From Longimicrobiales bacterium (lineage in GTDB: Bacteria; Gemmatimonadota; Gemmatimonadetes; Longimicrobiales; Gaopeijiaceae): DNA of 36,420 nt. Below, piece after piece: positions 1 to 17,714 of this stretch. Numbering within the stretch: position 1 is the stretch's first letter; every line of letters starts with the position of its first letter. The notes beneath the pieces were generated by a model. It worked only from the letters and a program-made list of their open reading frames with translations. It did no database searches and was not told where the DNA came from. Where the stretch lies: contig JANQDZ010000054.1 of NCBI GenBank assembly GCA_028278645.1, forward strand, positions 1 to 36,420, in the 5' to 3' direction. A program made the translations under genes and the position numbers.

Positions 1-36
1 ATCCTTGAACTCTGGCGTGTAAATCCGATGGCTCAT
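1..36 (-). CDS. Insertion-sequence transposase, N-terminal fragment (runs off the window)
   Basis: Twelve codons are visible, reading MSHRIYTPEFKD from an ATG at 36-34. A strong Shine-Dalgarno AGGAGG lies 4 bases upstream of the ATG. This opening is typical of the small helix-turn-helix subunit (OrfA) of IS3-like transposases, which binds the element's ends. The rest of the gene lies outside the window. The palindrome and the tandem TGTCCAC motifs just upstream are in the place expected for the element's end and promoter. Family assignment rests on the start only, so the IS group cannot be named. Confidence 0.6.
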   Translation of the reverse strand, partial: MSHRIYTPEFKD

Positions 37-51
37 GACACCTCCTGGGTT

Positions 52-69
52 GGTCTAGAATTCTAGACC
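52..69. repeat. 18-bp perfect palindrome upstream of the transposase start
   Basis: The sequence GGTCTAGAATTCTAGACC is its own reverse complement. It ends 15 bases before the transposase ATG, next to the ribosome-binding site, so in RNA it could form a hairpin controlling translation, or in DNA bind a dimeric repressor. Its role is not known. Confidence 0.7.
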
Positions 70-74
70 CCACG

Positions 75-130
75 TGTCCACCAAACCATGGGAATTCCAC
101 CTAGCTGTCCACTGAACCATGGGAAGTCCA
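75..130. repeat. Two tandem 25-mers starting TGTCCAC, probable IS-end motif
   Basis: Copies at 75-99 and 106-130 start TGTCCAC, share the core AACCATGGGAA and end TCCA. They match at 22 of 25 positions and are spaced 31 bases start to start. A third, degenerate version with the same first 8 bases and the same TCCA end is at 199-223. Position next to a transposase start suggests transposase-binding sites at an IS terminus. The other end of the element is not in view. Confidence 0.5.
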
Positions 131-262
131 AACCTCCAGTGGAGTTCGAGCGGGATCATGCAGCATGAACAACAGTGGTCAATCTTGCAGGCCGCCCCTG
201 TCCACCTTCAGGGGTTCACTCCAACTTTTGTGCAATTTTGGGCCGCCGCTAACACAGCCACC

Positions 263-1003
263 TCAGCTTCGCTTGGGATACGTCCCCCGGGTCGAGAACA
301 GGTAGATCTTCGCAGCGGATTTTAGTAGAAACACCACAGAATAGAGAAATAGTGCGATCATCAAGACTCGCACATTGTTATAGAAATATGCCGCTATATA
401 GCTCACCAGCAGTCCTTCAACGGTGAATAAATCAAAAAAGAACGGGTGTATTTTTCCAAAGACATTTTTCTGAGCCGTCTCTCCAACAGTTTTTTCGTGC
501 TTATCTTTCACAACGCCATTTGAATACAACGCCCGATAATAGTTGTTTTTCACAGAGTCATAAAAGCCAATGGATATTGCTCCCGATATAGCAAGGTAAA
601 GAAAGCGAATATCATCATATCTGTTGAATTGTGCGATTCCCATTGACGCGAATAGCAATGGCAACACAAGGGAATGAGTAAGGTAGTCCCAGTAAGCCCC
701 ATTTTTGGAGAAGCACTGTGTAAACCTCGCCACTTCACCGTCAGCAAGATCCAAGAGGACCTGCAAGCGCCAAAGCACGTAGGCAACCAATAACTGAAAA
801 GGTCCGCCGAGTAGTATGAGTATCGTGCTTGTCAAACCAACAAGAAAAAACGCGCCCGTCACAAAGTTAGCCGACAAGCCAAGGTTCACGAAGACGAAGG
901 TAAGGTAGGTGGCTCCCCGACTAGAGAAGTAGTAGAGTCGAGTGTGTTCTCTCACGTTGGCCCGTTTCGAGCGGCCCTTAATCTCCTCAATACTATGCAC
1001 CAT
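263..1003 (-). CDS. CDP-alcohol phosphotransferase family membrane enzyme
   Basis: Encodes 246 residues with several hydrophobic helices (about 34-60, 65-84, 110-122, 133-146, 198-232). Enzymes of this family move a phospho-alcohol from a CDP carrier to another alcohol in the membrane and make phospholipids or polyol-phosphate-modified glycans. The signature D-x2-DG-x2-AR-x8-G-x3-D-x3-D is present at residues 85-110 (D85, D88, G89, A92, R93, G102, D106), but the last aspartate, the proposed catalytic base, is His110. The ATG overlaps the end of the glycosyltransferase gene by 11 bases, so translation is probably coupled. The DNA is visibly A+T-richer than the rest (25 of 60 G+C in 361-420), which suggests transfer. 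Substrate unknown; the family call is firm, activity less so because of His110. Confidence 0.8.
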   Translation of the reverse strand: MVHSIEEIKGRSKRANVREHTRLYYFSSRGATYLTFVFVNLGLSANFVTGAFFLVGLTSTILILLGGPFQLLVAYVLWRLQVLLDLADGEVARFTQCFSKNGAYWDYLTHSLVLPLLFASMGIAQFNRYDDIRFLYLAISGAISIGFYDSVKNNYYRALYSNGVVKDKHEKTVGETAQKNVFGKIHPFFFDLFTVEGLLVSYIAAYFYNNVRVLMIALFLYSVVFLLKSAAKIYLFSTRGTYPKRS

Positions 1004-2117
1004 GGGCTACCCCCAAGATCCGATCATAGACACTCTCATAACTCTTCGAGGTTTTCTCCCAGGTGAAACCGGTGGGGTCGATGTTGAAACGTTGACCGCG
1101 AGGTGATAAACACTCGGCGATCTTGGCAGCCAAGTCTTCACTGTTGCCTGGAGAGCATAAGAACGGATAATCGGTTCCCAAGATGGTTCTGACAGACCCA
1201 ACTTTGCTGCTAACGACTTTTGTCCCGCAGGCGATAGCCTCTAATAGAACCTTGGGTACCCCTTCAGAAACACTCGAAAGCACAAATATCTCGGCCGAGT
1301 TTAGTATCTCTACCACCTCATTTCGCCTTTTATGACCGAGGAATTCAACCTCGTTTGTCAAATCAAGGCGTCGGGTCTGATCTTTTAGCCGATCCTCCAG
1401 TGGCCCACCTCCAACGATGCTAAGAGAGTAACCATTAAGCCTTCCTGAACCCTTTAGGATTTTGACGGCATCTATCAATACATCAAACCCCTTTTCTTTC
1501 TTGAGTGACCCTATGGAGACGATTTGTTTTCGCCGGGTATGACCCATATCGAAGAAGACCTTTGGGTCCACCCCGTTCAACACCTCGGTCCTGGCTCGGA
1601 TGCCCTGTTCGTCGAAATATGGCTCCATGTGAGAGCCTAGAAAAAAGACATGATCAAAGTGCACCAATAGGCGCGTAAGGAGATTTGATTCCCTTAGCAC
1701 GTTGAAATCACCGCCGTGGAACGTAATGAAAATCTTCTTTCCCAAGAGTTTCGCAAATAGAGCGATCGGATAATAGGCTGGAGAGTGAATATGCACAGCA
1801 TCATGCCTGAAGGTATGTGGTGACACTCTCACGGCGAAAGCGATCGCTCGACACGCCCTTAGTACCCTATCAGCAAAAGACTTGCGTTCCTTTCCACCTA
1901 TGAACACGGGAAATGTACGGATTAGTCTTGCATTCTTCGGAACCGGAAGGGGGTGTCCAGCCAGCCGTTCAGATATGATGGTAGTCTGACACCTGCAATG
2001 TTCAGTGACCTTATATGCATGATACCCCGCCCCACTGAATACCTCCGTTGGATAGTTCCCAATGCGTAGGAGCCGATACATGGACCCTGGAAGTTTCCTC
2101 GTTCTCCGTTTTACCAT
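993..2117 (-). CDS. GT4-family glycosyltransferase (GT-B fold)
   Basis: Encodes 374 residues. The N-terminal domain has FHGGDFN at 133-139. The C-terminal donor-binding domain has GSLKKEKG (203-210), IVGGGPLEDRL (234-244) and the E-x7-E motif of retaining GT4 enzymes (E285 and E293 in SEGVPKVLLE). Such enzymes transfer a sugar from a nucleotide donor to a lipid-linked or growing glycan on the cytoplasmic face. It overlaps the downstream CDP-alcohol phosphotransferase gene, so both probably modify one glycolipid or polysaccharide. No good Shine-Dalgarno precedes the ATG at 2117; Met13 (2081) is an alternative start. Donor and acceptor cannot be read from sequence. Confidence 0.88.
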   Translation of the reverse strand: MVKRRTRKLPGSMYRLLRIGNYPTEVFSGAGYHAYKVTEHCRCQTTIISERLAGHPLPVPKNARLIRTFPVFIGGKERKSFADRVLRACRAIAFAVRVSPHTFRHDAVHIHSPAYYPIALFAKLLGKKIFITFHGGDFNVLRESNLLTRLLVHFDHVFFLGSHMEPYFDEQGIRARTEVLNGVDPKVFFDMGHTRRKQIVSIGSLKKEKGFDVLIDAVKILKGSGRLNGYSLSIVGGGPLEDRLKDQTRRLDLTNEVEFLGHKRRNEVVEILNSAEIFVLSSVSEGVPKVLLEAIACGTKVVSSKVGSVRTILGTDYPFLCSPGNSEDLAAKIAECLSPRGQRFNIDPTGFTWEKTSKSYESVYDRILGVAHGA

Positions 2118-2876
2118 GCCAGGGAAGCCCGGATACAGTAACCCGGAGGGTTTTGTGATTTTGGACGCGGTAGAATCTGCAAAACCACTTTGCAGAGGGT
2201 GTTTAAGGCATTCCGACTCGATGCCCCCACAATGCTCATGCCACCAACCAGAACGGCGAAAGCTCGTACTAGACCCAACGGGCGTCCCTTACACTGCCAC
2301 GAGCTGAGGCCCAGCGATGCCAAAGAGAAGCTAGAAGCTGCCCCACCCCCGGTGGAACCCCGAGGGTCCGGGCGGCATAAGGGACCTGGATCTCAACCCC
2401 TCTCGTCCATGGTACGCTCCCGAAGAGGAAACTCACCCGCGCTATCCATCGATTCCATCTGGACCGATCTCACTATGCTCGTAGTTGGGCGCATCGAATC
2501 CGATTGAGGTTTCGGTCTTAGTCGAGGCTCCGCTCGGATCCCACCACGTACCTTCCATCCCCACACCGAGGCCACACTTGGCAGTTCGGGAGAATGGTTG
2601 GCGGCCAAGAATTAATACAACAAACGTAGCCTTAGGATGGGTCGGAGTCCTTTCCGGCGGTTCCTGAAACATGGTTAGTCCCAAGGCCTCTTCTTGGAAC
2701 CCAAGCATGGCCGGACACAAGGGACCACGTACCGCTTCTCAGACTCCACCCCACGAAAGAAAAACCCTGGAACTGGTGAGCCCTTTCTCGAATGAAACAC
2801 AGCCCGGCAGACGCATTCCCAGGGAATGCTAGCCTTGGAATCTCGATTCCTTCCCACAGGCAAGGTCGAACCCCTA
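2118..2876. other. 759-bp gap with no convincing gene
   Basis: Both strands were read. Open frames are short, lack ribosome sites and resemble no family I know. The most protein-like stretch is on the minus strand at 2442-2720 (92 codons), which continues the frame of the upstream acyltransferase after its stop; it may be a remnant but I would not call it. A clear inverted repeat lies at 2176-2196. A gap this long inside a co-directional cluster suggests a lost gene or a second promoter for the glycosyltransferase pair. Confidence 0.5.
2176..2196. repeat. 8-bp stem inverted repeat upstream of the glycosyltransferase
   Basis: TCTGCAAA (2176-2183) pairs with TTTGCAGA (2189-2196) around a 5-base loop, about 59 bases upstream of the glycosyltransferase start. 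No T-run follows on either strand, so it is not a standard intrinsic terminator. An operator or leader hairpin is possible. Confidence 0.45.
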
Positions 2877-3983
2877 CTATGCCCTTTGAGTAGCTCCATC
2901 GGGAAGGTCCTTGAATAGACTCACCCCATTGGCGATCAACACATTGCATCCAATCCGTACTTTTATGAATACGGAGGCTCCCATTCCAACCAAAGTGTTT
3001 TTGCCGACAGAGACATGACCGGCCAGAAGCGCTCCCGGAGCGATATGAACATTGTCCCCAAGGATACAGTCGTGGGAAACCACAGCACCGGAGTTGATGA
3101 TGCAATTTTTTCCGATTTCCGCACCGGAACCAACCACGGCTTTGGCGAATACTTGGGTCCCCTCTCCGAGGTTGGCCGACGGCTCCACTGTCGCATGTGG
3201 GTGGATCAGATGGGGAAGTTCGAATCCCGCACTTTTCAAGCGTCGGAAAACCTCGGCCCGGTCGGCGTGTCGCATTGCGGCTCCGAAGGCGTTCACAGCA
3301 TACCGAACTCCATTGGCGAAGAACTGAACCAGTGTTGTGTCGGAATCGTCACCGATCACCGGAACATCGAGAATGGTGGTTCCGATCACCAGGTTTCCAT
3401 CGAGGATCCCAGCGATTTCGTGGGTCCCCAGTCGTCGGATCAGATCGATACACATCTTCCCGTGGCCGCCACCGCCAAAGAGCAGGATCGCATTTTTAGG
3501 AAAGGACCGGCCTTCGGTTGGAGTTGGATCTTTCTCATCCCGAGCCAAAAAGCTCTCAACATCGTCCCGAGTTACCAGGCTCAGGTGATCAAAGAGCTTA
3601 GGATCTAGTTCGTGGAAGGCAATGAGCCGGGCAGCCGGTTTGGAGATTCGGGGTCCGCCATCTCTTGGCTCTGGTTCGTTGGCTTCGGACTCCTGACTTA
3701 AAGGCTCCGTGTCGGCCTGAAACTCGGCCGTAGGAAAGCTCGGATCATCGGATACCACAGCCAAGATTGAACCGACCTGGATCCGGTCACCCTGGGAGTG
3801 GACGAAAAACAAGTATCCATTACAGGGGGCAGCTACCTCAAAAACCGCTTTCGAGGTTTCCAGAGCCGCGATGACTTCACCCTCCAGGATTTGCGCACCG
3901 CTCTGAACAGTAAATTCGACTATTAGGTAGTAGTCATCGCTGACGGTCTCTCTCGGAACGTGGATCCGCGTTGCAGGACTCAA
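2877..3983 (-). CDS. Lipoyl domain - PSBD - NeuD/PglD-type acyltransferase fusion
   Basis: Encodes 368 residues with three parts. Residues 5-80 are a lipoyl/biotinyl domain; ETSKA places the modified lysine at K45, and ETSK is the lipoyl rather than the biotin (MKM) type. Residues 112-146 look like the peripheral-subunit-binding domain (PSBD) that docks E1 or E3 in 2-oxo-acid dehydrogenase complexes. Residues 165-368 are a NeuD/PglD sugar O/N-acyltransferase: a nucleotide-sugar-binding start (FGGGGHGK, 169-176) and then left-handed beta-helix hexapeptides. His304 in VVSHDC is at the position of the PglD catalytic base. The usual E2 catalytic domain is absent. The ATG overlaps the E1 stop by 4 bases. 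Inference: E1 charges the lipoyl arm with an acyl group, and the beta-helix trimer passes it to a sugar. Domain calls are firm; the reaction is a hypothesis. Confidence 0.85.
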   Translation of the reverse strand: MSPATRIHVPRETVSDDYYLIVEFTVQSGAQILEGEVIAALETSKAVFEVAAPCNGYLFFVHSQGDRIQVGSILAVVSDDPSFPTAEFQADTEPLSQESEANEPEPRDGGPRISKPAARLIAFHELDPKLFDHLSLVTRDDVESFLARDEKDPTPTEGRSFPKNAILLFGGGGHGKMCIDLIRRLGTHEIAGILDGNLVIGTTILDVPVIGDDSDTTLVQFFANGVRYAVNAFGAAMRHADRAEVFRRLKSAGFELPHLIHPHATVEPSANLGEGTQVFAKAVVGSGAEIGKNCIINSGAVVSHDCILGDNVHIAPGALLAGHVSVGKNTLVGMGASVFIKVRIGCNVLIANGVSLFKDLPDGATQRA

Positions 3984-5953
3984 GAAATCATCTCCATTGC
4001 CTTCCTTGCAATGTGTCGTGCCGAGGGTAAACAGGCGCGCTCGGCCTCGATACTACTGGGAACGATATCATTGTGGCCGAGTCTACCAAAAGCCTCCAGT
4101 TGGACCCCTGCCTCTGCTACTCGCGCGGCGACCTCGCTTCCCAGGGCCGCAAAACAGGGACCTTCCTCCGCAACCAATAATCTGCCCGTTGACCGCACGG
4201 AATGTAGGACGGGGTTTATGTTGAGGGGGTGGAGTTGGGTGGGGCAGATAATCTCACCCAGGACCTCTTCGTCGTCAAAGAGGTCCTGGACAGCTCTTTC
4301 AGCTTCTTCAAGCATCCCGCCGTAGCAGAAAATAGTTATAGCCGCGTTTCCCCGGGCCGGAGAGATCCGAACACAGGGGAGCGGCTCGTTCGAGAAAGTA
4401 ACTCGAAACCCTCGTGGGGGTTCGGCGTCAAGGTACCTAGTATAAAGTACCTTGTTCTCGATAACGACGGCGGGGTGGGAGATACACTCGCACAGGGTTT
4501 GGTATACCCTTCGAGGCGACCAACGGGCGTTCAGTGCAACTACGTCTAAGCCTGGTATGCCCAAGAAGTGTTTTTCAATAGACTGGCTATGCGTTGGACC
4601 GTACCCCCGTCTCCCCCCCATCGGTGTCCGCAGTATAAGTGGCACCTGGACCTTCCCATCGTACATGCGTTCAAACTTGCAGGCATGTTGCTGGAGTTGG
4701 TCGAATGTGAGGGAAAGAAAATCACCGAACATGATCTCAACGAGAGCCGGGAAACCAGCCATCGATGCTCCGGCTCCGACACCGGTAATGGCTGCTTCAC
4801 TGATCGGTGTGTTCCTTACACGACTCGGGAAAAGCTCGCTAAGGTCTCTAGTGACTTTGAAAGCTCCCCCGTACCCACCCTCAATATCTTCCCCGAGCAT
4901 CAGAAGGTCTGGCCGACTCTGCAAAAGACCCCGAAAGGTGTCGTAGAGGATATCAGAGATTTTCGCCTGCTCAAAATGGACCTCCTGCCACTCTGTCTGG
5001 GGATCAGATTCAGCCAGGTCTTCCGGTAGGGAGCAATGAGGTGCGCTCTCGCTGAGCTGGACAGCCTGCTCAACCTGGTGGTCAATCTCTGACAACAGAG
5101 GAGGAAGCCATTGAGGTTCATCGTTAAGGAGGCGAGTCAAGGAATCTTTCTGGACGAACGCACCGATCTCCTCCGGGGCCCTGTTGTCATCTCCCTTTGA
5201 ATGGGCCTTGAGTCGATAGGTCTTAATCTCGAGCAAAAGAGGTGCTCTATTTGTCCGAACCTGCTCGATAGATCCTGCAGCGTCAGTGAGAAGCCGCCGC
5301 CAGTCCCAGGTGTTTGACTCTGCAAACGGGATCCCAAATGCTGAAGCCCGTGCCTCAACCGATCCGGCCAAAGTCTGGGTTGACGCAGTAGATTGAGCAT
5401 ACCCGTTGTTCTCCACAACGATGAGAAGCGGAATGGCCCACTTAGATGCGAGGTTTAGTGTTTCATACAGGACACCCTCCCCCAGCGTCCCGTCTCCAAC
5501 GAACACAACAACAATACCGTCCGACTCATGCAGGCTTTGCGCAAGGGCCAGGCCGGCTGCCACCGGCACCATCCCGCCCTGAACCCCATTGGAGAAAAAC
5601 CCGGGCGCATGAAGGTGTTGACTACCTCCCTTGCCCCCGCAAACCCCAGTGGCCCTTCCCATAATCTCGGCTGTAAGTCCTTCAACGTCTCCGGTCCAAG
5701 CAATGAAGTGACCATGTCCCCGATGGTTGGAAACGATGATGTCGTTTTGGCCAAGGCCAGCGGCGATCGCCACGCCAACCCATTCTTGCCCGATACATGT
5801 GTGGACGGTTCCGTTTAGTTTGCCCTCAGAGAAGAGGGATAAGAAACGCTCCTCAGTCCGGCGGATGAGCAAGGCTTGGGAGATCAGACGTTTCTCAAGG
5901 TCATCGGGGGCCGGGTCTTCGGAACCCGGTTTTCGTATCACAGGTTTGTTCAT
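3980..5953 (-). CDS. 2-oxo-acid dehydrogenase E1, alpha and beta subunits fused
   Basis: Thiamine-diphosphate enzyme that decarboxylates a 2-oxo acid and reductively acylates a lipoyl arm. Numbering runs from the longest reading frame (686 residues, ATG at 6040). The alpha part (about 48-330) has the TPP motif GDG (182-184)...NN (211-212) and KAHSKGDD (278-285), equivalent to the GHS-type loop. The beta part (about 355-686) has LGEDIEGGYGG (382-392), NTPISEAAI (410-418) and GPTHSQS (481-487) with the conserved histidine. I prefer the start at Met30 (5953), since residues 1-29 are arginine-rich and unlike E1; neither start has a good ribosome site. A possible -10 box (GATAAT, 6079-6084 reversed) lies upstream. 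The only lipoyl partner in view is the next gene; no E2 core or E3 is present. Substrate could be pyruvate, acetoin-like or branched-chain. Confidence 0.9.
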   Translation of the reverse strand: MNKPVIRKPGSEDPAPDDLEKRLISQALLIRRTEERFLSLFSEGKLNGTVHTCIGQEWVGVAIAAGLGQNDIIVSNHRGHGHFIAWTGDVEGLTAEIMGRATGVCGGKGGSQHLHAPGFFSNGVQGGMVPVAAGLALAQSLHESDGIVVVFVGDGTLGEGVLYETLNLASKWAIPLLIVVENNGYAQSTASTQTLAGSVEARASAFGIPFAESNTWDWRRLLTDAAGSIEQVRTNRAPLLLEIKTYRLKAHSKGDDNRAPEEIGAFVQKDSLTRLLNDEPQWLPPLLSEIDHQVEQAVQLSESAPHCSLPEDLAESDPQTEWQEVHFEQAKISDILYDTFRGLLQSRPDLLMLGEDIEGGYGGAFKVTRDLSELFPSRVRNTPISEAAITGVGAGASMAGFPALVEIMFGDFLSLTFDQLQQHACKFERMYDGKVQVPLILRTPMGGRRGYGPTHSQSIEKHFLGIPGLDVVALNARWSPRRVYQTLCECISHPAVVIENKVLYTRYLDAEPPRGFRVTFSNEPLPCVRISPARGNAAITIFCYGGMLEEAERAVQDLFDDEEVLGEIICPTQLHPLNINPVLHSVRSTGRLLVAEEGPCFAALGSEVAARVAEAGVQLEAFGRLGHNDIVPSSIEAERACLPSARHIARKAMEMIS

Positions 5954-6040: not shown

Positions 6041-6794
6041 CTCCCAGTCGCATCGGCACCTACCAAAGCCGGGGGCGCATTATCACTCAGCAAAAAGCCT
6101 GTACCGTCCTCCCTACCTCCGCGGGACGGCGGACCTGGGGACCCTATCGAACACCACCCCGCCTCAATGAACTTTATGGAGGGCCTCTCGGAGCGGCAGA
6201 AGCCCATCTGTGAGTACGGAAGCCTCCAGCGACGGTATCTGGAGAAAGACCACCAGGCGAAACGGGCGTCCTTTACTCCGTGGATTCCTAGGAGGACGGC
6301 CGTCCCGACCAGCCGATGAGCTCACCCTCCAATCTACCCCGTAGGGGCTCTCCGACTTAGGCCCTCAGCTAAACAGACGTCTGAGGGCGCACGCCGAACA
6401 ATGACCAACCCTACCGTGGCTCCCCGCGCGGATGGAACAGACTCGGTTTCGGGTTGAATATGCGGCACCGAGGGTAGCTAAAGCGACTCTCCTTTCCGTG
6501 AATTGACCCAACCGGCACCACTTTTCCCCCCTCCCCTTGGAACCGCTTGCCAAGTCCGACCGCCGAGCCTTTTTCTGACGCGGCCCTGGTCTTCCGACTT
6601 CTTCTTCGATCGATCGGCCGTTCTTTTAACCCTGGATTCCCTTTCGACCTGACCCCGTACTGGAGGCCAAACCGAGGTCCGGTTGGGCACCTCCCATCCG
6701 GAGGCTGGTATCTCTTCGGCCGCTCCCTTTTGATGCAGGATGTCGACATCCCATTGGAGGTCGAAGCCAGGGCCTGGTAACCGATGGATTCGGG
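6041..6794. other. Gap between envelope operon and E1, no convincing gene
   Basis: Presumably holds the promoter of the E1 cluster. An inverted repeat, GCCCTCAG (6361-6368) with CTGAGGGC (6381-6388), has an 8-bp stem and 12-base loop; no T-run follows. A short plus-strand frame at 6167-6319 (50 codons, mostly G/C at third positions, start MNFMEGLSERQK) has no ribosome site and resembles nothing I know; it may be a gene remnant. Other frames here look random. Confidence 0.45.
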
Positions 6795-8387
6795 CTAGGG
6801 GGGGCCTTCGGGCCGGGCGAAGTCGAAGGCTAGACCGATACTCACGAAAACGCTGTTCAACCGATTCGGCGATGCCAGCGTTCTTCCCGCCGCGGCCTGG
6901 ATAATGACCCCTGACCTCGTCCGGATATGGATGCCGGCTTGGGCTTGGAAAGTAGAGCCACCCCCCACGTTTACCCCTCCCCCGCCACTTCCGCCTCCGG
7001 TCAACTCCGCCGCGACCGAGACCGCTTCTGAGGTGTCGAGCCGGTGTTCTACGCCCAACCCCAGCAAGCCCATAGCATACCCACCGGCATGTCCGGAATG
7101 GGCTGCAAGGGCCTGACCGGTCACGTACAGCCAGGGCTCGAAGAACCGGTCGAAACGCAATCCGATTAGGTTCAGATTCTCGGGATCGGAGGCTTTTCGC
7201 TTAGCGTCGAGCACTGTTTGGTGTACAGCGCCCAGCCGCCATTTAGCCAACACTAGTGAATGGCAATCAGTCATCGAATCGGTTTCGGCCCGTTGGCGCA
7301 CACCTCCCCCCATTCGCGCATCCCCGAACCTGTACCCGACGCGGCCCTGGTATGATTCCGCCGAGAAGCTGCCAGTGGATGCTATACGGCCCACGTTCCA
7401 ACCAACAGAAAGGGAGGTGGTGAGCAGGAGATTCAGACCCGCCTGAACCTTTCCTGCGACACCTCCAGAAGTATCTACGCTGCCGCCACCCCCCCCACCT
7501 CCGGTCGCGTTCAGGTCCCCGAAAAGGCGTCCCCGGATCAGTGGTAGCCGCAGACCCAGGCCACCGAACATCTCGGCGTATCCGTCGGACCTTCCTCCTG
7601 CCGCACCCGCCGCCTGGAACAGAAAGTACAAGGGTTTGGTGTTGAGGTGCCGGCGGTATTCCACACCGACGAGGGAGATGGTGCTTGTCATGGGTGTGCC
7701 CTGAGTGGTCTCCACTCCCGAAAGGGGTAGGTAGGCTCCCCCTATGGCCAACCACTCGGTTTCCACTATTCGCAAACCGGCACCCGAAGGATCGAAACTG
7801 TCCAGTGTCTGTCCTGCTTGGGTTGAAGGTCCGTAGGTCTCGAGGAATCGGGTCGACAGTGACACATAAGCCTGCCCGCTATCGACCTCTCCGTTTGGGA
7901 ACTTCACCCAGGAGACACCTCCCCCTGCTTCCACCGATCCCAGGGAGTATGTGGCGCCGGCGTGAACACGTACCATCATTCCACCACCTTGGGGCGCTGA
8001 CCCGCCCCCTCCCCCTCCGAGAAAGCCACCCACATCAAACCGCAGGACATCCGATACGGGTGGTTTCAAACCTAGGCTAACCCCCCCGGTGAAGAATCCT
8101 CCCCGCTCTCCGACAAGAGCTCCAAAACCAGTGGCCCCTGCATAGAATTTCGATCCGAAATCCATGAGAAAACCCACAGCCGCCAAACCCAGGTTTTCAC
8201 CCGAGTTGATCTTCAGCGATTCGTATTGGAGGCGTACCTCCGCCGGGCGGGTGTTGAGAACGGAACGCTGACTGGGATCCACCTGATTATTTGCCCCGGT
8301 CTGCCCCCCCAAGGGAGGAGGGGAACCAGCCGCCCAGACCGCGGCGCATCCAGCGGCCAAGAGTGCTGCAATCAACGGTCCACGCAC
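6795..8387 (-). CDS. Secreted beta-rich protein with three glycine-loop repeats, function unknown
   Basis: Encodes 530 residues and starts with GTG (8387-8385) behind a strong GGAGG site 6-7 bases upstream. Residues 1-20 are a signal peptide; AAGC at 11-14 could be a lipobox, so it may be a lipoprotein. The mature part contains three related modules of about 135-160 residues (roughly 50-185, 205-360, 366-525). Each has a hydrophobic beta-hairpin, a polyglycine loop (GGGGGG at 124-129, GGGGGGG at 296-302, GGGSGGGG at 464-471) and then an alternating strand region. The modules have diverged but align in order. Alternating hydrophobic and polar strands suggest an outer-membrane or surface beta structure. 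I do not recognise the family. It is last in the envelope operon. Confidence 0.7.
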   Translation of the reverse strand: MRGPLIAALLAAGCAAVWAAGSPPPLGGQTGANNQVDPSQRSVLNTRPAEVRLQYESLKINSGENLGLAAVGFLMDFGSKFYAGATGFGALVGERGGFFTGGVSLGLKPPVSDVLRFDVGGFLGGGGGGSAPQGGGMMVRVHAGATYSLGSVEAGGGVSWVKFPNGEVDSGQAYVSLSTRFLETYGPSTQAGQTLDSFDPSGAGLRIVETEWLAIGGAYLPLSGVETTQGTPMTSTISLVGVEYRRHLNTKPLYFLFQAAGAAGGRSDGYAEMFGGLGLRLPLIRGRLFGDLNATGGGGGGGSVDTSGGVAGKVQAGLNLLLTTSLSVGWNVGRIASTGSFSAESYQGRVGYRFGDARMGGGVRQRAETDSMTDCHSLVLAKWRLGAVHQTVLDAKRKASDPENLNLIGLRFDRFFEPWLYVTGQALAAHSGHAGGYAMGLLGLGVEHRLDTSEAVSVAAELTGGGSGGGGVNVGGGSTFQAQAGIHIRTRSGVIIQAAAGRTLASPNRLNSVFVSIGLAFDFARPEGPP

Positions 8388-8490
8388 GAGAGCCCTCCGC
8401 GAAAAGGATTCAACGGGTACCGGAAGGCGGGGATTTCACCAGATATTAAGTAAGGTAGGATGACCCTCAGGCCGCAGCGAATTCCTGACA

Positions 8491-8875
8491 TCAGCCACGT
8501 GCAAACCGCAGTCGACGAAGTAACCATCGGGCAGACAGGACTCCCATCGCCACACCCAGGGCGTCGGCCAAGAAGTCGCCCATTGAGGGCCCGCGAACGG
8601 GAACGAACGACCGGCGCCATTCGTCCGAGGCCGCGAAAAGGATACCGGATGAGGACCAGGAAAAGCTGGGCGGAGGGAGCTATCGGTGACGGTTTCGCCG
8701 ATCGCCATCCGCCCCTCGCCAATGTCACTCCAAGCACCGCGAAGAGACCAAAATGGACAACTATATCGTTGATGTGGAAAGTGTCCGCCCCCGGCACGTC
8801 GGTCCGGGAGCTCAGGAAAAAGAGGAACGCCGCCCAAGTCACGGCCGGGATCCAGGAGATCAGAAGTTTTATCAT
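8491..8875 (-). pseudogene. VanZ-like membrane protein, interrupted by one extra base
   Basis: The first frame reads MIKLLISWIPAVTW...FFLSSRTD...HFGLF, the two opening helices of VanZ-family proteins, to about 8650. The C-terminal half, GILFAASDEWRRSFVPVR then SMGDFLADALGVAMG, is in another frame and carries the VanZ D-E-x-x-x-x-F-V-P-x-R...D...AD...G pattern. Removing one G of the GG at 8647-8648 joins them as LVLIGILFAAS into a normal-length protein of about 127 residues ending at 8491. The start at 8875 is chosen by homology; an upstream ATG at 8935 is possible. It lies just downstream of the PorV-like gene (stop at 8923). It is either a real pseudogene or a sequencing error. VanZ proteins are small membrane proteins of unclear function, first met in teicoplanin resistance. 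Confidence 0.75.
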
Positions 8876-8922
8876 CAGACCAATATGTCCGGTATCAAGA
8901 TCTCGGCCACGGCACGCCCGTC

Positions 8923-10125
8923 TCACCCACCCCACCCCACTGACAGGTTTAATCCCGGATACAACCGGTCCCGGGCATAACTCATGACTGGATGGGGGTA
9001 CAGCGCCAGGTCGACGCTCAGGTTATGCCACCGCCTGGCCAGGCCCAAGGTGACGCTGAAAGGCAGAGGCATCTCGTCTTTCACATCACCGGTGAATTCG
9101 CTTTTGATTGCCAGGGGTATCAGCAAACCGATTCTGTACGAATAGTTTTCGCCTATCTTCTGCAACCCGCCACGAATCACTTTGAAATCCAGGGACGAGG
9201 TTCCGTACTCACCAAAGAGTGTCTGATAATCCACTTCGAGTTCGAGGGTCCCACTCCCAGCTTCAGTCCTGCGGGCCCACAGGAAGCCGAAGGTCAGGTC
9301 CCTCGGGAACTCCGATGTATTGGACTCCTCCCGTGTGCCGTCCTGATCCGTGATGACCGTTATTACGTCGAGGCCGGTGTCCAAGTCCTTCATGTTTGTT
9401 CCGAACGTGAGGTTCTCGGTCAAGAACAGTTTCGCGCCGAGATTCAAAGACAGTGCCGTTGCATCCGTTGAGCCCACGATGACGTTGCCAGGATCTTCGG
9501 CTGTGACTCCACAGAATGTGGTCCTGCAATCTACCCATCCCACCGTCACACCGAAGCTCCACCTTGGGTTCAAGCGGGGCGAAAGGGCCAGGCCCAACCG
9601 ATAGTCCCTGGTTTTGGAGTTGATCGTCCCATCGAAGTCATCGGGCAAGCCGGGAAGAGTGAACTTCAGAAGTACGGATTCCAGGTCCTCCGGTTTGAAA
9701 CGACCTTTGGCCCGGACATGCAACCGTGTCATCCACGAAAGGCCGAGTGCCGCCTTGAGGCCACGCACCGAGAAAATACCTGGGCTACAAGACACTCCCG
9801 CGAAGCTCATCCCGACGAGTCGTGCGTTGATTTGGCGCCCTATGGCAACTTGGAGGGACCCGGCCTCCACCAGCCCCGCCGGGTTCCAGTAGATCGAGTG
9901 CACGTCGCTGGTGCTGGCCACCACCGCCCCGCCCAAGCCCATGGCGCGGGCCCCGACACCCATGAGGAGGTCACTCCCTTCTGCCTGGAAGGACCTCAAT
10001 AGCTGTTGAGTTTTGCTGGCGGATGGTGCCAAGAAGGAGAGAGACGCAGCAACAAGTAGGGGGAGGAAAAACGGTTTAAAGAAGGGCGCCTCACTCAACT
10101 GACCACCCCGGTCACCTACCCCCAT
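8923..10125 (-). CDS. PorV/PorQ (UPF0164) family outer-membrane protein
   Basis: Encodes 400 residues with a signal peptide (about 13-37). The family hallmark follows: GARAMGLGGA (58-67), then DVHSIYWNPAGL (74-85). The remainder is alternating beta strands ending in LSVGWGG, as in FadL-like 14-strand barrels. In Bacteroidota, PorV serves as a shuttle of the type IX secretion system; related proteins in other phyla occur without it, and no other Por component is in view. The ATG overlaps the stop of the upstream gene as TGATG, showing translational coupling. Likely location is the outer membrane. Family call is good; cargo or role unknown. Confidence 0.85.
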   Translation of the reverse strand: MGVGDRGGQLSEAPFFKPFFLPLLVAASLSFLAPSASKTQQLLRSFQAEGSDLLMGVGARAMGLGGAVVASTSDVHSIYWNPAGLVEAGSLQVAIGRQINARLVGMSFAGVSCSPGIFSVRGLKAALGLSWMTRLHVRAKGRFKPEDLESVLLKFTLPGLPDDFDGTINSKTRDYRLGLALSPRLNPRWSFGVTVGWVDCRTTFCGVTAEDPGNVIVGSTDATALSLNLGAKLFLTENLTFGTNMKDLDTGLDVITVITDQDGTREESNTSEFPRDLTFGFLWARRTEAGSGTLELEVDYQTLFGEYGTSSLDFKVIRGGLQKIGENYSYRIGLLIPLAIKSEFTGDVKDEMPLPFSVTLGLARRWHNLSVDLALYPHPVMSYARDRLYPGLNLSVGWGG

Positions 10126-10783
10126 CAGGCCTCGTTCACCTCAAGCTTCCTGCCTCGGGAGATGACCTTGATGGGATCCATCGACCTTCCGTTACTATCA
10201 ACTGCCAGAAGGACGCCGGTGCCGGGTTCACGGAAAAGCTCCACAAGAGTTTCCCCGAAGACCCAGGTTCCGCAAATAGCACGGGTGTGCTCTTCGGTGG
10301 GTACAATTCGGGGAATCTGGTCTGATGGAAGGTCTTGATCGGCCAAGTCTCGCCTCGATTCTTCCACAAAGGGGTTGAAAACCGACTTTTTTCAAGTTCA
10401 GGATAACCCGAATACCTCAAAACTCCCTCATCCTCGTCCCCGCCCGGCCTCATCAATCTCCCTGCCTCGTCAAACCGAAGCACTCCAGCCTTCTCTAGAA
10501 GGGAGGTGAAGTAGGGGTTCCCGAGGAGGTCCGTCACTTCCTTCCAAGTGATTCCGTACAACACCCTGATGGTTCCCCCTTGAACAAGGGAAAGCTCCAT
10601 CAACCGCCCCCCTTGGACTGTCACGGTGGCCACACCTGAGACCTCCCCCGCCACCACCGACGCATGAGGGGTAGCAGGATGATGAATCTGGGCTTCCACC
10701 GTTGATACCGAGAAGGCCGCTAGGCCGGGGGCCATGCCTACGAACAAAACCAACGCCCTATCCCACCTCCGGACAATCATCAA
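10125..10783 (-). CDS. Secreted protein of unknown family, split by a -1 frameshift
   Basis: The first frame opens with a signal peptide (residues 1-32, ending STVEAQ) and reads sensibly to GYPELEK. It then continues as an unlikely tail to a stop at 10136. The -1 frame from the same point reads KKSVFNPFVEESRRDLADQD and continues to LEVNEA, stopping with a TGA (10127-10125) that overlaps the PorV-like ATG. Joining the frames gives 219 residues. The join is at an A6 run on the coding strand (T6 at 10387-10392). The ATG overlaps the upstream gene's stop by 4 bases, so this is the second gene of the operon. Either one A is missing (mutation or read error) or ribosomes slip at GAA-AAA-AG. The family is not recognised. 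Confidence 0.65.
10387..10392 (-). other. A6 run at the frameshift point
   Basis: The coding strand reads GAA AAA AGT in the first frame. A -1 slip with the lysine tRNA on AAA gives AAA AAG TCG in the second. Six A residues are short for transcriptional slippage, and no clear stimulatory hairpin was seen downstream. A seventh A would restore one frame. Confidence 0.5.
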
Positions 10784-11595
10784 AACACCCTCAGCGCCGA
10801 CCCGGCACCAAAAACGAACCTGGGCCGGTCGCCCACGTTCTTGGTGATGTCCGCTATCCCCATAGTGATGGCCGGGTAGAATCCCGGAAGGGGCAGGCTA
10901 TAGGACATCCCGAGGTTCATCGCCAGGCCGTCCCATTCGGCGATGGCGTTCCAGTTTTCGGCCAGCTCCACCGCGGCGTTTCCGAAGAACCACGTCCCGC
11001 CCGTGGTCCCCAGTGAGGCCCGGGTGGCCAGGGGCATGCTGGCGAACTGTCCTGATCCGGCGCCTAAGCTGAGATGGACTCTACCGACCCCGGGCCGGGT
11101 TCCGTCGACGGTCTGGAGCGTGTGGCTGACGACGATGAAGAACGATCGGCCCAGGTTTTGGTCGTCGACGTTCTCTATGAGCGTCATGGCGCCGGCCGCA
11201 ACCGAGGTGCCGCGGCCCAGGTACCGGTGCAGCTTTCCGCCAAGGCTGATCTGGCTGAAGCCGGAGATGTCGTAGATGGTGCCGTGGCCCTGTGCTCCGA
11301 TGAGCTTCACCGGGTCTCCGATCCCGGCTCCGAAGCTCCAATCGGCGTCGCTGCCCCCGCCGGGGTAGGCGTCGGTTTGGTATCCCATTCCCCCGAAGAT
11401 GGTGTTGTAGGCGGCGCCCCATCCGGTGGGTGAAAGGATGGACTTACCGGCGGCGTTGGGGAGCCGGAGCCTCAGGATGGATTCGGGAACGACGATCTCG
11501 TTCGCTTGGCTGGTTTCTTGGGGAAAACTCGGCTGGGGTGCCAGAAGGATGGCACCCACGGTAACGTGCAGAATCACCGTCGAGAATCTGCCCAT
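10780..11595 (-). CDS. Probable outer-membrane beta-barrel protein, function unknown
   Basis: Encodes 271 residues. Residues 1-26 form a signal peptide (VGAILLAPQPSFPQ before the mature end). The mature protein is rich in glycine, serine and aromatic residues in alternating strands and ends in the hydrophobic stretch FVFGAGSALRVF, as expected of a small barrel. The ATG at 11595 has AAAGGGA about 5 bases upstream. It is the first gene of the envelope operon; its stop overlaps the next ATG by 4 bases. Its promoter, leader and first five codons lie in a 125-bp sequence repeated at 14658-14782. I do not recognise a named family. Confidence 0.65.
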   Translation of the reverse strand: MGRFSTVILHVTVGAILLAPQPSFPQETSQANEIVVPESILRLRLPNAAGKSILSPTGWGAAYNTIFGGMGYQTDAYPGGGSDADWSFGAGIGDPVKLIGAQGHGTIYDISGFSQISLGGKLHRYLGRGTSVAAGAMTLIENVDDQNLGRSFFIVVSHTLQTVDGTRPGVGRVHLSLGAGSGQFASMPLATRASLGTTGGTWFFGNAAVELAENWNAIAEWDGLAMNLGMSYSLPLPGFYPAITMGIADITKNVGDRPRFVFGAGSALRVF

Positions 11596-11704
11596 GGCTT
11601 CCCTTTGGGGGTCGGGAGACAGCCGTTACACGCAGTATACCCGGGCCTACGGTGGGGCCGCCATCAGCCATTCGCGAGCCCGCCCGTAGGTGTGACACCG
11701 ACAA
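11580..11704. repeat. 125-bp repeat, copy A (promoter region of the envelope operon)
   Basis: Identical to 14658-14782 at 122 of 125 positions and in the same orientation (differences at 11644, 11646 and 11678). This copy contains, on the minus strand, the first five codons and the ribosome site of the barrel gene plus 109 bases upstream. Internal structure: CCTACGG (11646-11652) can pair with CCGTAGG (11684-11690), and GGTGT-G-ACACC at 11689-11699 is an operator-like dyad. Confidence 0.9.
11634..11639 (-). promoter_or_regulatory. Candidate -10 box TATACT for the envelope operon
   Basis: TATACT on the minus strand matches 5 of 6 bases of the sigma-70 -10 consensus and lies about 38 bases upstream of the barrel gene's ATG. 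No -35 hexamer is seen at 16-18 bases. The two dyads just upstream (11646-11690 and 11689-11699) could bind an activator. It is preserved in the second repeat copy at 14712-14717. Confidence 0.4.
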
Positions 11705-11710
11705 GCCTCC

Positions 11711-12079
11711 TTAATTCTCCGTCAAATCCGGCTCCGGATTGAGGTCTTCGAGGCACCTGGGGCACAGGGTATGGCTGAGATCCGCCTTCGGAGGGGCGCT
11801 CACCTAGCCCTCTACTTCGGTCAGCCAATCCCGCTCCCACCGGATTTTCGTTCAGCCGGCGCATAGGGCGAGCCGGCCGTGTTGGGTTTCGATGCGGGCC
11901 AGAGCATTCTAAATCCCCACGATCAGCTTGTCCCGTTCCCTCTCGGAAATGATGACCCTGTACATGGACCCCACCCAGGCCAGCAGCTCCCGGATCGCCA
12001 GGGTTCGGGCAATTCGCCCGTGGGAGCCCACCTCCAGAATCCGGATGTCTTTTCACAGACTCGCGCCGTCGGTAGACAT
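11711..12079 (-). pseudogene. Decayed regulator remnant with zinc-ribbon tail, four in-frame stops
   Basis: One unbroken phase of 123 codons runs from ATG 12079 to TAA 11711 with internal stops TGA, TAG, TGA and TAG. Between the stops it reads as protein: SERERDKLIVGI-stop-NALARIETQHG, then LALCAG-stop-TKIRWERDWL, TEVEG-stop-VS, KADLSHTLCPRCLED. This matches the C-terminal tail C-x2-C...Y-x-S...K-A-x-F-S-H-x-L-C-x2-C found on the receiver at 25930-26526. Two stops can be explained by single changes from expected codons (CAG to TAG, TAC to TAG). Absence of indels suggests recent death by point mutation. It ends 7 bases from the repeat at 11580-11704. Its upstream sensor or receiver part is missing. 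Confidence 0.75.
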
Positions 12080-12286
12080 GGTCGGGCCTCGGAAAGTGTG
12101 TGACCTCGGTCCAGCTCCTCGGGTGGAAAGTCGGCCGTCAGCTGGTATCCCCAGGGATTCTCGGGGTACCCCGCCAGACGGATTAGGGTTGCTGGCTGTC
12201 AATAAGGACAGGATCTACCTTAGAATAAGACAGGGAAGCCGTCAGTTGTCTCCTCACCATCGAGTCCACAATGAGGATCCTGTTGA

Positions 12287-13666
12287 ATGCTAGACCATAC
12301 TGAGCAGAGCAGCGGAGATGGACGCTTGGACCTGGGAGTAGTTGGACTAGGTTACGTGGGACTCCCGCTGGTCGTGGAGGCGGCCCGCGCTGGGATGCGC
12401 GTCCTGGGATTTGATGTGAAGGAGGAGACCGTCCTGAGCACCAACCGGGGCGAATCCCACCTCAACGATCTCACAGATGATGACGTGGGGGATTGTGTGA
12501 GGGCCGGCCGGCTCGAAGCCACCACCGATATGACCCGGCTGCGTGAGTGTGACACCGTGTCCATCTGTGTTCCTACGCCCCTCTCCAAAACCCGTGACCC
12601 GGACATTTCTTTTATTCTCTCGGCAACTGAAGCCGTCGCAGCTAACCTTCGCCCCACCCAGCTCATCCTCCTGGAGTCCACCACCTATCCGGGAACCACC
12701 CGTGACGTCCTTCTGCCCAGATTGGAGAAGACCGGCTTTCGTGTGGGGAAGGATTTCTTTTTGTGCTTCTCTCCGGAAAGGGTGGACCCGGGTAACCGCG
12801 TCTGGCTCACCAAGAACACGCCCAAGGTCATAGGGGGCATAACACCTCAGTGTCTCGACAGAGGGAAAGAGTTCTATTCCCGCTTCATCGACACGCTGGT
12901 GCCAGTTTCGTCGGTTGAAGTCGGGGAGATGACCAAGATCCTGGAGAACACCTTCAGAGCCGTGAACATCGGCTTGGTGAACGAGATCGCCCTCATCTCC
13001 GACCGCCTCGGTGTGGACGTTTGGGAGGTCATTGAGGCGGCGGCCACCAAACCCTTCGGATACATGAAGTTCACGCCTGGGCCGGGCCTGGGAGGGCACT
13101 GCATCCCGGTCGACCCTCGCTATCTGGCTTGGAAGATGAGATCCCTCAACTACTCCACGCGCTTTATCGACGTGGCTTCGGAGATTAACGCCGAAATGCC
13201 CTTTTTCGTGGTGGGGAAGGTTAGAGAGGCGTTGAACCATGCCCGGAAGTCGGTAAGTGAATCCAGGGTCCTGATACTCGGTGTGGCCTACAAATCGGAG
13301 GTCGATGATGTCCGTGAGTCCCCGGCCGTGGACATCCTTCGGCTCTTGGAAGCCGATGGGGCCGAAGTGGTATACCACGATCCCTTCGTGGCGAGCTTGG
13401 AGGCAAACGGGACCGTTTGGGAGGGAGCAACCCTTACCGACGATCTCCTCTCCCGAGTGGATGCGGCCGTGATAGTCACCGACCACAGAAGCGTGGATTA
13501 CGAAAAAGTCCTCGAGTTGGCTCCAATCGTCGTGGACACCCGAAACGCCACCCAGGCAGCCCGCCGCGGCATGCTCCGACCCAATCCGGGCGGGTGGATC
13601 GTGAAGGGATACCGATCCCCCCCTGCAGATACCATCCCTACGGAGGAGTCCTGTACAGATGAGTGA
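12287..13666 (+). CDS. wbpA: UDP-N-acetylhexosamine 6-dehydrogenase (WbpA/WbpO type)
   Basis: Encodes 459 residues. It oxidises C6 of a UDP-HexNAc with two NAD+ to the uronic acid for surface polysaccharide. The N-terminal Rossmann start is LGVVGLGYVGLPL (16-28), then SICVPTPL (92-99), FSPERVDPGN (161-170), typical of the UDP-GlcNAc class, ILENTFRAVNIGLVNE (218-233) and GLGGHCIPVDPRYL (267-280) with catalytic Cys272. The C-terminal domain carries GVAYKSEVDDVRESP. GAGG lies 10 bases before the ATG. The upstream 207 bases hold a dyad CTGTC-N6-GACAG at 12196-12211 and no clear promoter. It overlaps the epimerase gene by 8 bases; together they could make UDP-GlcNAcA/UDP-GalNAcA. WbpO (UDP-GalNAc) is the alternative. 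Confidence 0.88.
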   Translation: MLDHTEQSSGDGRLDLGVVGLGYVGLPLVVEAARAGMRVLGFDVKEETVLSTNRGESHLNDLTDDDVGDCVRAGRLEATTDMTRLRECDTVSICVPTPLSKTRDPDISFILSATEAVAANLRPTQLILLESTTYPGTTRDVLLPRLEKTGFRVGKDFFLCFSPERVDPGNRVWLTKNTPKVIGGITPQCLDRGKEFYSRFIDTLVPVSSVEVGEMTKILENTFRAVNIGLVNEIALISDRLGVDVWEVIEAAATKPFGYMKFTPGPGLGGHCIPVDPRYLAWKMRSLNYSTRFIDVASEINAEMPFFVVGKVREALNHARKSVSESRVLILGVAYKSEVDDVRESPAVDILRLLEADGAEVVYHDPFVASLEANGTVWEGATLTDDLLSRVDAAVIVTDHRSVDYEKVLELAPIVVDTRNATQAARRGMLRPNPGGWIVKGYRSPPADTIPTEESCTDE

Positions 13667-14651
13667 CCTCTCAAGCTACGTGTCTCCAGAGACGACTTAC
13701 TTGGTAACCGGCGGGGCCGGCTTCATCGGATCTCACCTTGTGGAGCACCTATTGGCTGGAGGTGCCCTTGTGCGTGTTGTGGACGATTTCTCAACGGGGC
13801 GTCGGGAGAACCTTTCACCCTTCCTGGACCGCATCGTGCTTGTAGAAGGAGACATCACCGATCCCGAGGTTTGCCGACAGGCGTCGAAAGGAGCGCAGGT
13901 GGTCTTTCATCAGGCGGCCCTTCCCTCCGTCCCACGGAGCGTGGTGGATCCTATCCGGTCTCACCATGTAAACGCTACCGGCACCCTGAACGTTTTGTTG
14001 GCAGCGAAGGAGGCAGGGGTTCGGCGGGTGGTCTACGCAAGCTCCTCTTCCGCGTATGGCGATACCCCCACTCTGCCCAAACGAGAAGACCAAACTCCCA
14101 GCCCTCGCTCACCTTACGCAGTTGCGAAGCTCACCGGGGAGCATTATGTGAGAAGCTTCCCTGGGGTTTACGGGATGGAGTGTGTCGCCCTTCGGTATTT
14201 CAACATCTTTGGTCCGCGGCAGGACCCGAGTTCGGCCTACGCGGCGGTGATTCCCCTGTTCGCCGTGGCTGCCCTCGCCGGGGTGTCCCCTACCATCAAC
14301 GGCGATGGAGAACAAACTCGGGACTTTACATACATCGATAACGCCGTCTTTGCGAACCTCTTGGCAGCGTCAGCTCCGGCCGAAGATGTCTCCGGGGAGG
14401 TCTTCAACGTCGGGTGCGGAGACCGGATTTCGGTGAACCAGCTATGGCATGGGATCCGGGCAGCACTAGGGGCTTCAGTTGAGGCAAACCATGGCCCGCC
14501 CAGGGCAGGAGATGTGAGGGATTCTCTGGCCTCTCTGGACCACATCCGAGAACGGGCCGGTTACAGGGTGATCGTGGAGTTGAATGAGGGAATTCGGCGA
14601 ACAGTGGAGTGGATCCGGGAAACTAATGTTTCGGAGGGCGCCGCGACTTGA
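13659..14651 (+). CDS. wbpP: UDP-N-acetylglucosamine 4-epimerase (WbpP type), extended SDR
   Basis: Encodes 330 residues. It interconverts UDP-GlcNAc/GalNAc or their uronic acids by transient oxidation at C4. It has the NAD-binding TGGAGFIG (17-24), SSSSAYGD (128-135) with the catalytic serine, and Y153-x3-K157 (YAVAK). The stretches LRYFNIFGPRQDPSSAYAAV and INGDGEQTRDFTYIDN follow the pattern I recall for Pseudomonas WbpP. Normal length. Translation is coupled to the dehydrogenase (8-base overlap), which supports a UDP-HexNAcA pathway. A repeat copy of the envelope promoter begins 7 bases after its stop. A generic NAD-dependent sugar epimerase/dehydratase is the fallback call. Confidence 0.85.
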   Translation: MSDLSSYVSPETTYLVTGGAGFIGSHLVEHLLAGGALVRVVDDFSTGRRENLSPFLDRIVLVEGDITDPEVCRQASKGAQVVFHQAALPSVPRSVVDPIRSHHVNATGTLNVLLAAKEAGVRRVVYASSSSAYGDTPTLPKREDQTPSPRSPYAVAKLTGEHYVRSFPGVYGMECVALRYFNIFGPRQDPSSAYAAVIPLFAVAALAGVSPTINGDGEQTRDFTYIDNAVFANLLAASAPAEDVSGEVFNVGCGDRISVNQLWHGIRAALGASVEANHGPPRAGDVRDSLASLDHIRERAGYRVIVELNEGIRRTVEWIRETNVSEGAAT

Positions 14652-14657
14652 TCCTAT

Positions 14658-14782
14658 TCGAGAATCTGCCCATGGCTTCCCTTTGGGGGTCGGGAGACAG
14701 CCGTTACACGCAGTATACCCGTGGCTACGGTGGGGCCGCCATCAGCCATTCGCGACCCCGCCCGTAGGTGTGACACCGACAA
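14658..14782. repeat. 125-bp repeat, copy B (between epimerase and NarL-type regulator)
   Basis: Second copy of 11580-11704, 3.1 kb away, same orientation, 3 mismatches. It keeps the -10 box (14712-14717), the ribosome site, the ATG and five codons (MGRFS) of the barrel gene on the minus strand. It then runs into the epimerase gene, where the frame stops after 16 codons. Transcription from it would be antisense to the epimerase. One mismatch shortens the CCTACGG/CCGTAGG stem to 6 bp. Confidence 0.9.
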
Positions 14783-14790
14783 ACCGACCC

Positions 14791-14808
14791 CCATGCCGGC
14801 AGGCATGG
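14791..14808. repeat. Hairpin CCATGCC/GGCATGG
   Basis: CCATGCC (14791-14797) and GGCATGG (14802-14808) pair perfectly around a 4-base loop, directly after the repeat and 75 bases before the regulator start. No T-run follows, so it is a leader hairpin or operator rather than a classic terminator. Confidence 0.45.
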
Positions 14809-14883
14809 CTTCCTTGCGGCGCTACACCAGCCGTCCCTATGATCGGCCAGGACCGCAGAAGGCCCTCGAGAACCGAGCCAGGC

Positions 14884-15516
14884 GTGATCGAACTCATCAT
14901 TGCAGACGACCACAAGATGGTCCGCCAAGGCCTCCGTAGGATCGTAGAGTCCCACTCCGACATGGAGATCGTGGCCGAGGCCGCAAGCGCAGACGAGCTC
15001 AGAGAGGCGCTTTCCGAGACAAAGGCGGATGTCCTCCTGCTGGATATCTCCATGCCAGGTCCCGGGTTTTTGGCGCTTATGAAGGAGCTGAGAGAAGGCC
15101 ATTCGGACCTGCCCGTTCTGGTGGTCAGCATGCACGCCGAGGAGCTTTGGGCCGTCCAGGCTCTCAAAGCGGGAGCCGCGGGGTACCTCGCCAAGACCCA
15201 CTCGGCTGAGGAGTTGGCGGAAGGTATCCGCAGGGTCTATCAGGGGGGACGTTACATCACCCCGAGCCTTGCCGAGGCCCTTGCCCTGCACATGGGGCCC
15301 GAGGGTGGTGAGCCCCTGGTCCAGAGCCTCTCCCGGCGGGAGTTTGAAGTCCTCCAGAAGCTGGGTTCCGGAAAAATGGTCAAAACCGTGGCCCGAGAGC
15401 TCGGAATCAGCCAGAAAACGGTTAGCACCTATCGAACCAGGATCCTCGAGAAACTGCGTCTCAAGTCCACTGCGGAGCTGATCCGGTTCGCGGTGGAGAA
15501 CGATCTGCTGGACTAG
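14884..15516 (+). CDS. NarL/FixJ-family response regulator (REC-LuxR)
   Basis: Encodes 210 residues from a GTG start. The receiver (2-118) has acidic DD at 8-9, phospho-acceptor Asp54 (LLLDIS) and Lys104. The LuxR helix-turn-helix domain (about 145-205) has LSRREFEVLQ and ELGISQKTVSTYRTRI. It binds DNA when phosphorylated and regulates transcription. The GTG is chosen because the receiver starts right there; an ATG at 14839 would add 15 residues and neither has a strong ribosome site. It opens the signalling array. Its kinase is not adjacent; the orphan HisKA_3 kinase at 33351 is of the right type to be its partner. Confidence 0.88.
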   Translation: MIELIIADDHKMVRQGLRRIVESHSDMEIVAEAASADELREALSETKADVLLLDISMPGPGFLALMKELREGHSDLPVLVVSMHAEELWAVQALKAGAAGYLAKTHSAEELAEGIRRVYQGGRYITPSLAEALALHMGPEGGEPLVQSLSRREFEVLQKLGSGKMVKTVARELGISQKTVSTYRTRILEKLRLKSTAELIRFAVENDLLD

Positions 15517-17712: not shown

Positions 17713-17714
17713 CC

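Follow-up and report, generated by a model that had tools for sequence, protein, structure and literature searches.

Gene organization of the locus

As listed in Table 1, two overlapping minus-strand genes lie near one end of the window, a stretch of 36,420 nucleotides that is one whole contig of the 4.9-Mb draft host genome. The first encodes a fused E1 alpha-beta enzyme, with the Pfam domains E1_dh, Transket_pyr and Transketolase_C all in one chain, and the second encodes a protein that joins a lipoyl domain, a PSBD-like segment and a NeuD-type acyltransferase. The shared 4 bp, TTGA, hold the TTG start of the fusion gene and the TGA stop of the E1 gene, and a ribosome site of the GGAG type lies immediately 5' of this TTG. 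An earlier note on this DNA had described a fused E1 overlapping the fusion gene by 4 bases, and both its coordinates and this overlap were right.

The contig ends just past the CDP-alcohol phosphatidyltransferase-like gene. The GC content at positions 1-5953 was 0.46-0.57, compared with about 0.61 over the remaining contig, which suggests that this low-GC end may be horizontally acquired DNA. No aminotransferase was found in the window, and no carrier protein was found among its ORFs. At 12287-14651 on the plus strand, a nucleotide-sugar dehydrogenase gene and a TviC/LegB-like epimerase or dehydratase gene overlap by 8 bp, a possible source of uronic amino sugar near the E1/fusion pair. On the plus strand at 14584-36284, genes for response regulators, HD-type phosphodiesterases and PAS-rich hybrid histidine kinases follow one another in a long series, and one of the kinases has an Hpt domain. 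Four proteins without a Pfam match, some of them glycine-rich and with export-like N-termini, are encoded at 6795-11595 on the minus strand.

Table 1 Features of the E1/fusion locus (positions in the window)
Feature	Position	Strand	Basis or remark
Fused lipoyl / PSBD-like / NeuD acyltransferase gene	2877..3983	-	368 aa, TTG start
Lipoyl domain, residues 7-76	3756..3965	-	PF00364 35.8 bits, cut-off 22.1
Lipoyl-lysine candidate K45	3849-3851	-	within ETSKA, alignment
PSBD-like helical segment, residues 112-147	3543..3650	-	hhalign, helices in model
NeuD/PglD-type sugar acyltransferase, residues 166-365	2889..3488	-	TIGR03570 176.2 bits, cut-off 160.8
Catalytic His304	3072-3074	-	aligned with PerB His141
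Fused E1 alpha-beta ThDP enzyme	3980..5953	-	657 aa, ATG start
E1-alpha part (E1_dh, residues 28-295)	5069..5872	-	GDGT...ENN ThDP motif
E1-beta pyrimidine-binding part, residues 331-504	4442..4963	-	clade-specific RGYGPTHSQSxxKHF motif
K461 of E1	4571-4573	-	in RGYGPTHSQSxxKHF motif
E1-beta C-terminal transketolase domain, residues 534-648	4010..4354	-	Transketolase_C
GT4 family glycosyltransferase	993..2117	-	PF00534 116.8 bits; downstream of pair, same strand
CDP-alcohol phosphatidyltransferase-like gene	263..1003	-	PF01066 23.3 bits, cut-off 22

The fused protein carries a sugar acyltransferase in place of the E2 core

The earlier note had read the fused protein as a lipoyl domain with K45, a PSBD (112-146) and a NeuD/PglD left-handed beta-helix acyltransferase with His304 that replaces the E2 catalytic core. 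Most of this reading held. The lipoyl domain exceeded its PF00364 cut-off, with the predicted lipoyl lysine K45 placed at the hairpin. The acyltransferase part, which passed TIGR03570, also matched PglD_N at residues 166-234 (33.8 bits, cut-off 23.4) and Hexapep (52.8 bits, cut-off 27), and its nearest solved relatives by both sequence and fold were PerB, the gonococcal PglB acetyltransferase domain, VioB and PglD. The PerB counterpart of His304 is the residue mutated in 4eaa/4eab. Of the two UDP-binding Asp residues of PglD/Pcryo_0637, the first is retained as D195 and the second is replaced by Gly. No CAT-type E2 core (PF00198) was found in the fused proteins, and the window fusion has a complete NeuD/PglD domain instead, in agreement with the proposed exchange of the core.

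The PSBD was the part that stood only in weakened form. A helix-loop-helix like that of a PSBD is present in the AF2 model (pLDDT about 64-82), and the segment, picked by hand, aligned with canonical PSBDs in hhalign (94.9%, E 4e-8). It is nevertheless degenerate, gave no Pfam match to a PSBD even at E<=10, and lacks the usual GTG/GSG loop, a feature common to all five fused copies and the RenI-type E2s; its docking role is putative. The structure was predicted from seven sequences, which made the sugar-nucleotide domain and the PSBD-like segment usable and left the lipoyl domain poor; an earlier prediction from two sequences reached a pLDDT of 39 and was not usable.

Conservation of the E1/fusion pair across three phyla

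The operon of E1 and lipoyl-NeuD fusion was found in five genomes from three phyla, namely that of the window, another Gemmatimonadota MAG, one gammaproteobacterium and two Bacteroidota. Sought elsewhere as the earlier note had proposed, the two genes were thus conserved together in four other genomes. The E1s of these pairs are 40-55% identical, all frames are full-length, the gene order is the same, and E1 and fusion overlap by 4, 4, 14, 4 and 8 bp. A scan of one genome per species over about 85,000 species, seeded with exact peptides of the fused protein, returned one full-length relative (L008, Gemmatimonadetes MAG KW1-S21_32), which has the same 4-bp overlap as the window and is 55% identical in E1 and 45% in the fusion. 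The window was placed in Gemmatimonadota through this named relative and, less directly, through its kinship tables. Using E1 profile searches, the gammaproteobacterial pair (L165) was found in one of 369 genomes and E1s of the same clade in three of 267 Bacteroidota genomes (L173, L174 and L175).

The lipoyl-NeuD partner lies beside the E1 in L173 and L175 but not in L174, whose partner is an E2 with a lipoyl domain and a CAT core, adjoining a phosphopantetheinyl-transferase-like protein with an N-terminus that looked carrier-protein-like by eye. One E1 family is thus paired with two acceptor modules. The L174 cluster (6602-13222) also holds a B12-type radical SAM protein and an ATP-grasp protein, and it is possibly an undescribed acyl-carrier pathway.

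The fusion is rare. No further copy was found near home, either in 395 sampled genomes of the phylum or in 394 genomes of the class, where E1s of 320-360 bits were classed as ordinary by score. Relatives of the gammaproteobacterium had none, and a survey of G1052's class (245 genomes) turned up G1052 alone. Viral contigs contained no relative of the fused protein, and plasmids searched with it gave stand-alone NeuDs only.

The E1 belongs to a clade with a remodelled pocket

In the PDH E1 equivalog model the window E1 scored 211.7, far under the cut-off of 393.85. In the tree it formed a group with RenH and E1s from NRPS/PKS clusters (support 100/100), on a long branch and apart from the PDH and acetoin E1s. 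This group consisted of the E1s of the window, L008, L165, L173, L174, L175 and RenH with four NRPS/PKS-cluster or similar E1s; the tree was built without authentic NapB/NapD sequences, so that its Nap-like membership is given by RenH and the NRPS/PKS-cluster E1s. Eleven residues were invariant across 11 E1s of the clade and absent from six other E1s, and part of them fall in the expected pocket motifs, THTC, GGSQH, HSK(G/S)DD and RGYGPTHS followed by K461. The conserved H455 occupies the position of H128-beta in PDH, a residue in contact with pyruvate (PMC2663715). Six residues past it, the invariant K461 would suit a phosphorylated substrate.

According to later papers, xylulose 5-phosphate is the source of a hydroxyethyl unit that homologues of NapB/NapD deliver to a carrier protein (PMC7570522; also PMC5384830); this donor chemistry (Peng et al. 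2012) was taken through what the citing papers PMC5384830, PMC7570522 and PMC9268379 say of it. A locus of S. cattleyicolor encodes a corresponding set of proteins, namely E1-alpha, E1-beta, E2, an ACP-like and a KASIII-like protein. The window E1 belongs with the RenH/Nap-like enzymes, its pocket is remodelled, and the Nap literature points the same way. On these grounds we hold with modest confidence that a ketose phosphate donor and a glycolyl group are likelier than a 2-oxo acid; the glycolyl/ketose part by itself falls somewhat short of an even chance.

The earlier note had taken a 2-oxo acid as the donor, and this became doubtful. E1 would then decarboxylate pyruvate, 2-oxobutyrate, a branched-chain 2-oxo acid or hydroxypyruvate, and the acyl group would reach the sugar from the arm with no CoA involved, the same transfer from another donor. 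The enzyme has the set of domains typical of 2-oxo acid E1s, H455 is conserved, and the pepteridine E1 and E2-T-C fusion are proposed to use 2-oxo acids (PMC5384830). These points are opposed by the position of the E1 outside the PDH/acetoin group, its low PDH equivalog score and the clade-wide alteration of the pocket motifs, and the host already has a PDH of its own. A 2-oxo acid donor is, in our judgment, rather unlikely, and a ketose phosphate is preferred below.

Three homologous pairs lie in nucleotide-sugar clusters

In three of the four homologous loci, the pair has an aminotransferase beside it and lies in a nucleotide-sugar cluster. In the L173 cluster, PseB and PseC score above their cut-offs and the NeuB/PseI- and PseG-like genes below theirs, and a cytidylyltransferase-like gene is also present. 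The E1/fusion pair stands directly before the NeuB-like gene and, with no PseH N-acetyltransferase seen on this 38.7-kb contig, could supply the missing N-acylation, judging from gene content. In L175, E1 is immediately preceded by a DegT aminotransferase, the fusion is immediately followed by a Gfo/Idh oxidoreductase, and a TviB-like UDP-GlcNAc dehydrogenase is present as well; we take this set to resemble WbpA-B-E, with the pair in the place of WbpD. A DegT aminotransferase also adjoins the pair in L165, and no obvious sugar cluster was seen around the pair in L008.

Within the nonulosonic-acid cluster of L173, ATP-grasp, amidohydrolase-like and PIG-L deacetylase genes were observed at 14253-18167, which suggests further unusual editing of the sugar.

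The fused copies lack a C-terminal motif linked to CoA

Of 30 stand-alone NeuD relatives, 27 carried the C-terminal motif G(V/N)PA(K/R), and the five fused copies all lacked it (Fisher 1.7e-4), although these five may be one clade and the loss a single event. In Pcryo_0637/PglD, a conserved last-turn proline (Asn212-Pro213) adopts the trans form in the CoA-free state; when CoA is bound it is cis, and the coil after it folds back and completes the helix (PMC8040287). By analogy, the motif would correspond to this CoA-linked last-turn segment. Because the segment is missing in all five fused copies, acyl-lipoyl is favoured over acyl-CoA as donor, and the loss is the best sign against CoA that the sequences offer. 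Two separate origins of the fused NeuDs (L165 and L175 versus the rest) were also considered; the tree is compatible with one origin (support 74/90).

Alternatively, the fusion might merely co-localise the enzymes, with the acyl group passing from the arm to CoA through another E2, or with the acyl-CoA pool serving a NeuD part that uses acyl-CoA. In other respects the NeuD half is typical of its family and exceeds the TIGR03570 cut-off, and other E2 CAT cores are present elsewhere in the host genome. Since the operon lacks a CAT core in all five genomes and the CoA-linked segment is gone from every fused copy, we consider use of acyl-CoA improbable. Direct transfer from the arm is the reading that we keep. 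The earlier note had claimed transfer without free CoA, and this claim is favoured by motif loss and gene context while the activity itself is a prediction.

The three stand-alone NeuDs without the motif were L012, L013 and L124. Those at L012 11-586 and L013 7992-8579 each have a CBS/nucleotidyltransferase-like gene in their cluster, and the L012 cluster includes a NeuB-like gene as well; these two NeuDs may draw on a different donor or may have become inactive.

Proposed lipoyl-dependent acylation of sugars

We propose that the pair is a two-protein lipoyl machine for the N-acylation of a nucleotide amino sugar, in which the acyl group passes from acyl-lipoyl to the sugar and acyl-CoA is not used, and we hold this with somewhat better than even confidence. 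E1 would form an activated acyl-ThDP carbanion, most likely converting a ketose phosphate to a two-carbon glycolyl unit. As expected from the domain families, lipoyl-K45 would accept the unit as an S-acyl-dihydrolipoyl thioester. The arm would then reach the NeuD/PglD site, where His304 would activate the amine and the acyl group would pass directly to the sugar, a step to which motif loss and gene context lend support. In the last step, a housekeeping E3 would re-oxidise the arm. Transfer of an acyl group off a lipoyl arm leaves dihydrolipoyl, as is established for complexes of this kind, so E3 is required at every turnover, and the earlier view that it is needed only if the arm must be re-oxidised was wrong. 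Besides a separate PDH operon, close to which E3 is found, the host genome encodes LipB together with an OGDH-like E2, and such housekeeping genes can supply both lipoylation and re-oxidation.

The fuller picture, a CoA- and carrier-free system in scattered bacteria in which a transketolase-like E1 draws glycolyl from ketose phosphate and the lipoyl arm makes N-glycolyl (or similar) surface sugars, is more tentative, and we would not give it an even chance. A chance or decaying gene join without joint function would agree with the rarity of the fusion among the 395 Gemmatimonadota genomes and with the low GC of the contig end, but it is hardly credible because both the architecture and the operon are found in five genomes from three phyla, in full-length frames with E1s of conserved sequence, the same order and overlapping genes.

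To our knowledge, hexapeptide sugar acyltransferases take their acyl group from CoA or acyl carrier protein. If the proposal is true, direct donation by a lipoyl arm would add a third kind of donor for these enzymes and a way to put acyl groups that lack CoA esters onto bacterial surface sugars. The swinging-arm logic of PDH would be rewirable by exchanging the acceptor domain only, and CoA-free sugar decoration would become testable with two proteins in vitro.

Comparison with known systems

No description of such a system was found in the literature on lipoyl with NeuD or pseudaminic acid. PMC4875605 was discarded as a precedent, because its 'lipoylation' means fatty acylation of glycans. 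For the loading of non-CoA acceptors by E1 and lipoyl, there are precedents in pepteridine (PMC5384830) and naphthyridinomycin (PMC7570522).

RenH of the renieramycin system is 46% identical to the window E1 and belongs to the same clade, and the N-terminal half of RenI has lipoyl and PSBD-like parts like those of the fusion. RenH/RenI and the NapB/NapC/NapD/NapE-type systems (naphthyridinomycin, dnacin) form small operons with overlapping genes, as here. However, RenI has a CAT-type E2 core (PF00198, 127 bits) where the window fusion has the NeuD sugar acyltransferase, and the Nap-type systems load a carrier protein, as cited accounts report, whereas there is no carrier protein near the window pair. 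In Photorhabdus, the pepteridine E1 and E2-T-C fusion (plu2796; PMC5384830) likewise rewire E1-lipoyl chemistry to acylate a small-molecule amine; there, transfer onto the pterin is proposed to go through a carrier protein and condensation domain, and in the window pair it is predicted to be direct, by the sugar acyltransferase.

The pyruvate, acetoin and branched-chain dehydrogenase complexes share E1 domains, a lipoyl arm and the need for E3 with the window system, which differs from them by having no CAT core, an E1 of another clade with another pocket, and a product that is presumably a sugar amide rather than acyl-CoA. With PerB, PglD, VioB and NeuD, the fusion has the fold, TIGR03570, the catalytic His and the first UDP-binding Asp in common; it differs by the added N-terminal lipoyl and PSBD-like domains, the E1 operon partner and the loss of the C-terminal motif. 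At L089 1342-3378, a NeuD and a DegT aminotransferase were observed in a single 678-aa open frame, another sign that this type of acyltransferase works with amino sugars.
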